The translations under genes and the position numbers were made by a program. Below are positions 13,627 through 16,512 of a DNA stretch of 64,000 nucleotides, piece after piece (positions within the stretch are counted from its first letter, which is position 1; each line of letters starts with the position of its first letter). The notes below the pieces were generated by a model. That model worked only from the letters and a program-made list of their open reading frames with translations, had not been told where the DNA came from and searched no databases. Source of the stretch: Verrucomicrobiota bacterium (GTDB taxonomy: Bacteria > Verrucomicrobiota > Verrucomicrobiia > Verrucomicrobiales > Akkermansiaceae); NCBI GenBank assembly GCA_004293445.1, contig RDYP01000002.1, positions 124,001-188,000 of the forward strand. The letters are read 5' to 3'.

Positions 13627-14388
13627 ATGAAACTCGTCTCTTGGAACGTCAACGGGATCCGCGCCACCCTCGGCAAGGGCCTTCCCGAATTCATCGCCTC
13701 CGAACGACCGGAAATCCTTTGCCTTCAGGAGACCAAAGCCCGCGAAGAGCAGGTCTCGCTGCCATTGGAGTTCGCAGGCTACCACTCCTTCTGGAATTCC
13801 GCCCAAAAACCCGGCTACTCCGGGGTCGCCATCTTCACCCGCGAATCCCCGCTCTCCGTGCGTCATGGCATGGGGATCGAGGAACATGATCGCGAGGGCC
13901 GCGTCATCACCCTCGAATACGCGAATTTTCATCTCGTAAACGTCTACACTCCGAATTCCCAGGACGAACTCCGACGCCTCCCTTATCGCATGATTTGGGA
14001 TGAAGCATTCCGACTCTTTCTGCTCTCGCTCGAAACATCGGGTAAGCCCGTGATCTTCTGTGGCGACCTGAATGTTGCCCATCGCGAAATCGATCTCGCC
14101 CGCCCCAAGGACAACCGGAAGAGCGCTGGCTTCAGTGACGAAGAGCGGGCCGGCTTCGACCGACTTCTTGCCAGCGGCTTTCACGATAGCTACCGCCACC
14201 TCCACCCGGATCAAAGCGGTGCTTATTCCTGGTGGAGCTATCGCGCCAATGCCCGCGCCAACAACGTCGGCTGGCGTATCGATTACTTCGGCGTCTCGGA
14301 ATCCCTGCTGAAACGGGTCTCAGCAGCCGACATTCTTCCCCACGTGACCGGCTCCGATCACTGCCCGGTCTCGCTGGAACTGAGCTGA
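13627..14388 (+). CDS. xth: Exodeoxyribonuclease III (AP endonuclease)
   Basis: 253 residues from ATG 13627, where the family start MKLVSWNVNGIRA begins. All catalytic motifs of the ExoIII/APE1 family are visible: NVNGIR, LQETKA (metal-binding Glu), GDLNVAHREID (Asp and Asn), RIDYF and the terminal GSDHCPV (catalytic Asp-His). The enzyme cuts abasic sites in base excision repair and trims 3' blocking groups. It is preceded by the rpsI terminator and followed by a structured intergenic segment. Confidence 0.95.
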   Translation: MKLVSWNVNGIRATLGKGLPEFIASERPEILCLQETKAREEQVSLPLEFAGYHSFWNSAQKPGYSGVAIFTRESPLSVRHGMGIEEHDREGRVITLEYANFHLVNVYTPNSQDELRRLPYRMIWDEAFRLFLLSLETSGKPVIFCGDLNVAHREIDLARPKDNRKSAGFSDEERAGFDRLLASGFHDSYRHLHPDQSGAYSWWSYRANARANNVGWRIDYFGVSESLLKRVSAADILPHVTGSDHCPVSLELS

Positions 14389-14484
14389 TCGCCTCGAGCC
14401 CCCTACCCGGCCGCGCTTTTTTCCCAAAACGACGCCTCGCCTCGTCACGACAAGCACCGCCGTCGGGATCACGTCATTGCGTAA

Positions 14485-14643
14485 TGGCGAAACACCAGAC
14501 CCACTGACAGTATCGGAGTGTAAGGCGACTCGATCCCCCGATCAGGAACCTTGCACGACCCGTCCGCCCCCGCGGACTAAAAACATAAACCCTGCGGAAG
14601 GCCCGCTGCTCTGGTGATCACATCGCCAGGCCAGCGGGTTTTT
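14485..14643 (+). ncRNA. Candidate structured small RNA with intrinsic terminator
   Basis: This segment between xth and convergent glmS folds into an ordered structure on the plus strand. A closing helix pairs 14485-14490 with 14623-14628 and 14493-14499 with 14610-14616 (all Watson-Crick, internal loop 2/6). Inside are a hairpin 14518-14525/14549-14556 (8 bp, one G-U, with a GATC-CCCC-GATC tip), a perfect hairpin 14562-14567/14572-14577 with a CCCC loop, an A-rich single strand (14578-14590) and a small GCGG/CCGC hairpin (14594-14606). The 3' side of the closing helix is also the core of a terminator, so the two folds exclude each other. No reading frame follows on this strand. It could be a small RNA or simply the xth 3' UTR; I could not assign an Rfam family. 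Confidence 0.5.
14602..14643 (+). terminator. Intrinsic terminator of the structured RNA / xth
   Basis: Outer stem CCCGCTG/CAGCGGG (14602-14608 and 14632-14638), inner 7-bp stem (14611-14617 and 14623-14629) with one T-G pair, then TTTTT (14639-14643). The T run is on the plus strand only, so it serves transcription from the xth side and stops it 28 bp before the glmS stop. Confidence 0.8.
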
Positions 14644-14670
14644 CCCGTTTCAAGAGCGGCTCGCAGCGAC

Positions 14671-16512
14671 TCACTCAACCGTCACGCTTTTCGCCAGATT
14701 CCGGGGCTGGTCGATCTCACAGCCGCGTGCGTTGGCAATGTGATACGCAAGCAATTGCAATGCGACAACGGTCGGAATGGTGCTCACCAAAGGATCGCAG
14801 GCTGGAACCTCGATCACATCATCCATCGCTTCGGCAGCCTCGCGATCACCCTCAGTGACGACCCCGAGAATCCGCGCGCCACGAGCCCGGCATTCTTCAA
14901 CATTGCCCAGAGTTTTGTCCTTCCCGGGGATATCGTTTGCCAAGGCAATCACGGGAGTACCAGGAGTCAGGAGCGCAATCGGCCCATGCTTGAGCTCCGC
15001 AGCGTGGTAGCCCTCAGCGTGAATGTAGGAGATCTCCTTGAGCTTGAGCGCACCCTCCAGCGCCACGGGATAAAGAGGACCGCGACCGATGAAGAAGGCG
15101 TGTTCGTTCTCGGCGTAACGCTTGGCAATCCCGGCGATATGCTCGCTCTGGCCGATGACCTGCTGCACCAGATCCGGGATCGACTCGATCGCGCGGGCGA
15201 ACTTCATCCCATCCTCCCGCGAGTAACGACGGCCGCGGCCGAGCTTGAGGGCCATCATCAGCATCACCGCCACCTGACAAGTGAAGGCCTTGGTCGAGGC
15301 GACGGAAATCTCAGGCCCCGCGTGGAGATAGACCCCGCGACCGGTTTCACGCGCGATAGTCGACCCCACGACATTGCAAAGCCCCATCACAAAGGCACCC
15401 TTCTGATTGGCCTCACGCACGGCAGCAAGCGTGTCGGCGGTCTCTCCGGACTGCGAAATCGCGACCACCAGGTCGGTGCGACCGATGATCGGATTCCGGT
15501 AGCGAAACTCCGCCGCCTGCTGAACCTCGGCATGGATGTCCGCCATGTCCTCGAACGCATATTCACCGACCAAACCCGCATGCAACGAAGTGCCGCAGCC
15601 GACCAACACCACGCGCTGGATCTCCGCGAGATCGCGGGGCGAAGTGCCCATGCCAGACAGCACCGACGACCCGAGATTAAAGTCCAACCTCCCGCGGATC
15701 GCGTTGCGCAGGGAATCCGGCTGCTCGTGGATTTCCTTCAACATGAAGTGCTCGAAGCCGCCCTTCTCCGCCGCGGCGGCGTCGAAACCGAGCTCACTGA
15801 CCTCCCGCGCCACCGGCACCTGATGAAGATCACGGATATCCACGCTGTCGGCGGTCACCACCGCGATGTCGTTGTCCTCGAGATAAATCACCTGCCGGGT
15901 GTGAGCGATGATCGCAGAGGCATCCGAAGCCACGATCGTCTCTCCTTCGCCCACACCAATGACGATGGGGCTGCCGCGACGGGCGGTGATGATCTTGCCC
16001 GGCTCCTTCGCGGAAATAACGGCAATACCGAAAGTCCCCTCCACCTGGCTCAGTGCCTCGCACACCGCTTGGAACAGATCACCTCGGTATCGGTCGCCGA
16101 TCAGATGCGCCAACACCTCGGTATCGGTCTCCGAATGAAAATGATGGCCCTTGCCTTCCAGTCGGGCACGCAGCGAACGGTAGTTCTCAATGATCCCGTT
16201 GTGCACCAGCGCGATGTCGCCGGACTGGTCGAGGTGCGGGTGAGCATTGACCTCAGTCGGCGGTCCGTGAGTCGCCCAGCGGGTATGAGCGATCCCTGTC
16301 GAGGATTGCGTGAAACGCTCCACCGGCCAATCGGCACGGGCTTTTTCGTTGAGCGCCGCGACCTTGCCCGGTGCCTTGCTCACGACGATCGCTCCATCCT
16401 CAAGAATTGCCATGCCCGCGGAATCGTAGCCACGGTATTCGAGCCGACGTAGGCCGCCGATGAGAACGCTGGGAGCGGAGGCTTTACCGATGTATCCGAC
16501 GATGCCGCACAT
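14671..16512 (-). CDS. glmS: Glutamine--fructose-6-phosphate aminotransferase (isomerizing)
   Basis: 613 residues, the standard length. The N-terminal glutaminase domain starts with the nucleophile Cys (MCGIVGYIG, Cys2 before Met removal). Two SIS sugar-isomerase domains follow (about 290-430 and 460-600), and the protein ends in AKSVTVE, the typical C-terminus that closes the active site. It makes glucosamine-6-phosphate, the first step to UDP-GlcNAc for peptidoglycan and lipid A. It is downstream of an acetyltransferase-like gene and glmM on the same strand. I saw no glmS ribozyme pattern in the 152-bp leader. Confidence 0.97.
   Translation of the reverse strand: MCGIVGYIGKASAPSVLIGGLRRLEYRGYDSAGMAILEDGAIVVSKAPGKVAALNEKARADWPVERFTQSSTGIAHTRWATHGPPTEVNAHPHLDQSGDIALVHNGIIENYRSLRARLEGKGHHFHSETDTEVLAHLIGDRYRGDLFQAVCEALSQVEGTFGIAVISAKEPGKIITARRGSPIVIGVGEGETIVASDASAIIAHTRQVIYLEDNDIAVVTADSVDIRDLHQVPVAREVSELGFDAAAAEKGGFEHFMLKEIHEQPDSLRNAIRGRLDFNLGSSVLSGMGTSPRDLAEIQRVVLVGCGTSLHAGLVGEYAFEDMADIHAEVQQAAEFRYRNPIIGRTDLVVAISQSGETADTLAAVREANQKGAFVMGLCNVVGSTIARETGRGVYLHAGPEISVASTKAFTCQVAVMLMMALKLGRGRRYSREDGMKFARAIESIPDLVQQVIGQSEHIAGIAKRYAENEHAFFIGRGPLYPVALEGALKLKEISYIHAEGYHAAELKHGPIALLTPGTPVIALANDIPGKDKTLGNVEECRARGARILGVVTEGDREAAEAMDDVIEVPACDPLVSTIPTVVALQLLAYHIANARGCEIDQPRNLAKSVTVE

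Follow-up and report, generated by a model that had tools for sequence, protein, structure and literature searches.

The interval studied here lies between two convergent genes, xth and glmS, in a window of 64,000 nt (the whole stretch of DNA that was analysed). The genes and the features recognised or predicted between them are as follows.

13627-14388, + strand: xth, encoding an Exo_endo_phos domain.
14471-14650, + strand: predicted complete small-RNA gene, comprising the box, the -10 element, an RNA of ~125 nt and an intrinsic terminator.
14471..14485, + strand: upstream box ACGTCATTGCGTAAT, matching 15 of the 15 positions of the consensus MCGYSATKRCGTRAT.
14508..14513, + strand: predicted -10 element CAGTAT, aligned with the CATGAT/CATTCT of relatives.
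About 14519-14643 (start +/- a few nt), + strand: predicted small RNA, placed by the -10 spacing, the position of GTAAG and a covariance model.
14518..14556, + strand: 5' hairpin, with the stem 14518-14525/14549-14556 (from the fold and pairing probabilities).
14562..14577, + strand: second hairpin, GTCCGC-CCCC-GCGGAC, with the stem 14562-14567/14572-14577 (from the fold and pairing probabilities).
14596..14644, + strand: intrinsic terminator hairpin, with the core CCCGCTG (14602-14608) / CAGCGGG (14632-14638) and a T run at 14639-14643.
14671-16512, - strand: glmS, encoding SIS and glutamine amidotransferase domains.

The sequence at 14485-14650 folds with an energy of -66.2 kcal/mol (z = -4.57), which none of 200 dinucleotide shuffles reached. 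Together with the terminator hairpin and its T run, this bears out the original prediction of a structured, terminator-ended RNA, and two inner helices of the kind it had described are present in the fold. In this predicted fold, the inner stem of the 5' hairpin carries a run of five cytosines (C5, 14535-14539) and the second hairpin carries another (14567-14571), each with four of its five residues unpaired. As had also been claimed, no gene follows on the + strand: the ORF list holds no good candidate between the element and glmS, and the + strand ORF at 14614-16452, which overlaps the end of the element, runs antisense to glmS. A simple consensus scan of 14000-15000 found neither a sigma-70 promoter nor a -35 hexamer, and it did not list the terminator at 14596-14644, its sole terminator-like site being on the - strand. 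Searches against Rfam returned only one tRNA at gathering score in the whole 64-kb window and, at E<=10 in 14380-14680, two matches far below their thresholds that we regard as chance. The loci of six relatives (types A and C, see below) gave two sub-threshold matches, both outside the elements. 6S RNA, against which the multi-branched fold had already been held to argue, can be set aside, as the hairpins are separate, do not form a single long rod with a central bubble, and have no match to it in Rfam.

A BLAST search of 38 genomes with 14400-14700 retrieved the window itself and otherwise only the ends of glmS genes and matches at chance level. Since it returned no relatives of the element, glmS loci were located across the genus instead. 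The sample consisted of 18 genomes of the genus (G000 being the genome of the window) and 288 genomes of the order. glmS was located in 17 of the 18 genus genomes, G000 included. Directly downstream of it, six of the 16 loci from relatives carry an element in which a 5' hairpin and C-runs are combined with a terminator hairpin, and one of the six carries two. Counting that of the window, the element adjoins glmS in 7 of 17 loci. A covariance model built from seven glmS-adjacent copies (R1, body type C) matched 31 of the 288 order genomes at E<=0.01, some of these matches being weak and left uncounted, and led to further body types within the genus. R1 itself gave no match to the window copy. 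The elements most like that copy, designated type A, have the layout CGTAAGCRACGCCGATCCCCCC ... CCCGCTG...CAGCGGG followed by a T run.

Membership of the window copy in type A was examined with models from which it had been excluded. A profile of eight type A elements matched 14464-14644 with E=1.4e-7, the next hit in the 64 kb having E=15; its score of 26.4 bits on the window copy compares with 8.5 for the best match in first-order random sequence totalling 3.2 Mb. The type A covariance model R2, built from 11 of 13 copies (two longer copies from the tandem locus L065 were omitted), matched 14505-14650 with E=1.2e-6, followed by a next best of 0.4. When parts of the profile were searched separately in the 64 kb, first place went to the promoter at E=0.0075, to the whole 5' half at E=0.037 and to the terminator at E=0.03, while the RNA body alone, that is, the part from promoter to terminator, was unrecognisable (E=17, rank 3). 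Homology is therefore carried by a promoter and a terminator at the right distance, to which the body adds little, and by this comparison the window copy has a diverged RNA body. The GTAAG motif (14520-14524) lies at offset 15, as in relatives. The six terminator core pairs 14602-14607/14633-14638 are identical in all 12 aligned type A sequences, and the outer stem GUAAG/CUUGC of the 5' hairpin is kept in 91.7% of cells among type A. Several relatives have a counterpart of the second hairpin with a C-run loop. Against the type A anatomy, the window copy has kept its two C5 loop runs, whereas its terminator loop does not carry the C-run found in that of its relatives.

The promoter region was also compared across copies. 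Each of the 23 type A rows matches the box consensus, itself derived from these very rows, at 13-15 of 15 positions; of 2000 random 85-mers from genome G009, eight score 13 and none higher. In 22 of the 23 rows, the end of the box lies 18-19 nt from the -10 block (19 nt in the window), and in the one exceptional row the script took a more distant box match. Scores of the six type C rows range from 12 to 14 and make a weaker case, because 66 of the 2000 random stretches reach at least 12; by eye, their box lies at a fixed spacing from a hexamer resembling a -10. Among type B elements, a box is visible by eye in L167, L168 and contig C45 of G000, and not clearly in L161 and L066. Some copies appear by eye to have a second box-like site about two helical turns further upstream. 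We consider the 15-nt box, centred ~40 nt before the predicted start, a probable activator site. Its position, combined with a promoter that has no -35 element, suggests that the promoter is under activator control.

It had been proposed that a functional RNA should be conserved and covary in relatives. Homologues were indeed found, and the seven type C copies behind R1 do covary: both partners had changed in 10 of 26 pairs, a count reached by only 2 of 500 shuffles, and the covariation score of 0.332 compares with a shuffled mean of 0.153 (reached by 0 of 500) and with 0.05-0.10 for slid partners. Covariation within type A did not rise above shuffles, 138 of 500 reaching its score, because these copies are much alike.

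Across the genus, the family is both widespread and multicopy. R2 gave 55 rows in 14 of the 18 genomes at E<=0.01, a few weak ones being antisense, partial or wrong, and 44 rows in 10 genomes at E<=1.1e-9. With the type B model R3, all but one of the 18 genomes gave a match at E<=0.001, with 26 rows in 15 genomes at E<=1.1e-14, and R1 matched 15 of 18 at E<=0.001, with nine rows at E<=8.4e-11. Taking R1, R2 and R3 together, a strong row of body type A, B or C is present in 16 of 18 genomes; training copies match by construction, and five of the 16 (G000, G001, G005, G006 and G007) contributed none. G004 and G010, which are 61% and 72% complete, yielded weaker rows only. One locus, L065 (G011:C3), holds six tandem copies, each with its own box and terminator, that carry one to several small CUCCCC hairpins. 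The genome of the window also encodes two better-preserved siblings, a type A copy at C38:22354-22494 (L178), scoring 81.8 bits with R2 as against 32.3 for the window copy, and a type B copy at C45:10853-10962 (L232; R3 E=1.9e-16). The ORFs beside ten copies away from glmS are varied and, by eye, include no common gene. Outside the genus, R2 matched three genomes of the 288-genome order sample at E<=0.001, and genus g19 has R1 elements with a box, as judged by eye. Among 80 named-genome glmS loci, no element was seen beside glmS in the 10 inspected by eye or in the 19 scanned with R1, a model poor at type A.

C-runs recur throughout the family. The 29 elements counted (23 type A rows and six of type C, with type B left out; 4344 nt in all) contain 127 runs of at least five cytosines (C5+, 29 per kb) against a single G5+ run, compared with a background of 225 C5+ (0.56 per kb) and 249 G5+ (0.62 per kb) runs in 400 kb of G009. 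Most of the C-runs of the elements lie in loops of hairpins, the terminator hairpin included, or in single-stranded stretches. Taken alone, the two that the window copy carries are weak evidence, since the window is strongly C-skewed (GC skew of -0.14 to -0.24 throughout its + strand, with 113 C5+ and 10 G5+ runs). A search for the RNA chaperone Hfq (PF17209) detected it in none of the 18 genus genomes and in five of 14 control genomes.

Taken together, we consider it probable that 14471-14650 is a stand-alone gene, a diverged copy of a multicopy genus family, that specifies a trans-acting, activator-controlled, C-rich small RNA. The proposal of an undescribed small RNA thus gains support from homologues elsewhere in related genomes, which share the box, the 5' hairpin and the terminator, and from the lack of an Rfam family. 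Sequence comparison shows the homology, the common box, the -10 element, the terminator, the copy number and the C-runs; transcription, the activator, mRNA pairing and repression we infer. Against this reading stand the unrecognisable body of the window copy and its mere two C-runs in a window that has many, the type A covariation at the level of shuffles, and a crude test in which G-runs did not outnumber C-runs near predicted starts. A regulator would bind the box ~40 nt upstream of the start and thereby activate the promoter, in which a -10 but no clear -35 element can be recognised. The resulting transcript of ~125 nt, stopped by its own terminator, would keep short C-runs open in its hairpin loops, and sibling copies would expose further C-runs in the terminator loop and in stretches left single-stranded. 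The most likely partners of the C-runs would be G-rich sequences at ribosome-binding sites or close to them, and pairing there would, by analogy with LhrC and sX13, block translation in trans, here without Hfq.

Rfam includes LhrC, and the element matched it neither at gathering score in the window nor at E<=10 in 14380-14680. LhrC of Listeria monocytogenes, in the sections of the two papers drawn on here, has UCCC motifs in loop A, a single-stranded stretch and the terminator loop, is turned on by the regulator LisR and pairs with ribosome-site sequence that is rich in G (PMC4132741, PMC5880928). On that account, LhrC1-5 resemble the family in being multicopy and in placing CU-rich motifs in a 5' loop, a single-stranded stretch and the terminator loop. 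They differ in having UCCC motifs where the family has C5-C7 runs, and in belonging to another phylum, so the likeness is one of anatomy, with no sequence relationship shown. The cited portions of PMC3771888 describe sX13 of Xanthomonas as an RNA of 115 nt with C-rich apical loops that acts without Hfq and targets mRNAs with G-rich (4G) motifs near their start. Its size is about the same, and it too displays C-rich loops on stable stems (in the window copy, four of five cytosines are predicted to be unpaired in both loops). In contrast, sX13 is described there as having three stable stem-loops and a 5' region without structure, whereas the family is multicopy and its siblings have a C-run in the terminator loop. 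This comparison, too, is one of descriptions, with no sequence relationship shown. Cuckoo RNAs, by comparison, carry CCUCCUCCC loops. Several such RNAs (CcsR1-4) lie side by side in Rhodobacter and, as far as the cited part of PMC10253847 describes them, are released by RNase E cleavage of a single precursor, which encodes CcaF1 as well and has one RpoH promoter and one terminator. The tandem copies of L065 differ, as each of the six has its own box and terminator and they would not form one precursor.

Two alternatives would confine the element to its own locus. The original prediction envisaged a transcription-control RNA with two exclusive folds, in which a 13-bp helix would close the structure, or a regulated xth 3' end; we regard such a cis-acting switch or attenuator as scarcely credible. 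The alternative helix can be drawn, at -60.6 kcal/mol, but it is actually two pieces of 6 bp (14485-14490/14623-14628) and 7 bp (14493-14499/14610-14616), and forcing 12 of its 13 pairs breaks the terminator hairpin and is 5.6 kcal/mol worse than the -66.2 kcal/mol fold. It also requires promoter DNA: 14485 is the last base of the box, upstream of the -10 element at 14508-14513, so that the bases of the 5' strand are probably untranscribed. The boundaries of 14485-14643 first proposed accordingly shift to about 14519-14643 for the predicted RNA and 14471-14650 for the gene. Moreover, the + strand offers no gene to be controlled downstream, the RNA would stop at its terminator, and none of the 16 loci from relatives has xth in the 1.5 kb that follow glmS (some of these loci are shorter), yet six of them have the element. 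A mere bidirectional terminator region shared by glmS and xth, folded by chance, would fit the place of the element between two convergent genes and the lack of an Rfam family. This reading is nevertheless highly improbable, given that homologues with the same box lie far from glmS and that the glmS strand has no T run after the hairpin.

Two further alternatives accept the family and concern what its members do. It is conceivable, though we rather doubt it, that the window copy is a functionless decaying paralogue and that the siblings in G000 do the work. Its low score relative to the C38 copy and the loss of the C-runs in the single-stranded part and the terminator loop point that way; the perfect box at the right spacing, the strong fold and the intact terminator point the other. 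RsmY and RsmZ titrate CsrA via repeated GGA loops, and the family RNAs could likewise be protein sponges, whose repeated loop C-runs titrate a protein that binds single-stranded C. This is consistent with C-runs being kept across three different bodies and multiplied at two levels, through small hairpins repeated inside one RNA and through tandem genes. In addition, a test too crude to be telling showed no excess of G-runs near starts: the 30 nt before predicted starts contain G5 in 7 of 298 genes and C5 in 7 of 298, and the gene calls gave no clear ribosome-site signal. We consider sponging unlikely, as the C-rich loops of LhrC and sX13 work through base-pairing.

Extending the preferred reading of a trans-acting small RNA, we tentatively speculate that one activator drives a regulon of small RNAs with A, B or C bodies, retained for the C-runs they expose and amplified as tandem copies. 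Such a dose-tunable set, in genomes where no Hfq was found, may mask many G-rich start regions or titrate a C-binding protein. The family comes from a part of the tree where the catalogue of known small RNAs is sparse: a table in one review lists eight distinct small RNAs in Planctomycetes, Verrucomicrobia and Chlamydiae together versus 345 in Proteobacteria (PMC9029176), and no paper on a C-run family of this kind was found in the open-access literature. It would test how often C-rich loops directed at G-rich starts arise independently and how such RNAs act where no Hfq is found, and the common box provides a handle on the inducing signal.

Several candidate matches were judged by eye. Weak R1 matches left uncounted, some of which may be real, comprise L062, L063, L067, L068, L069, L071, L072, L074, L075, L076 and L077 outside the genus and L164, L165 and L166 within it. 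Two others are not members, namely G000:C28:87338-87448 (R1, E=5.6e-4) and L182 of G017 (R2, E=0.009). L063 (G261, genus g3) has C8 and C6 runs just before a terminator hairpin, with no box seen, and is possibly a remote relative of the family. Among the glmS loci, two come from contigs labelled Akkermansia muciniphila: the GlmS of L084 is 69% identical to that of the window, while the C-terminal part of GlmS in L095 is 92% identical to it, and the species name of the latter looks wrong.
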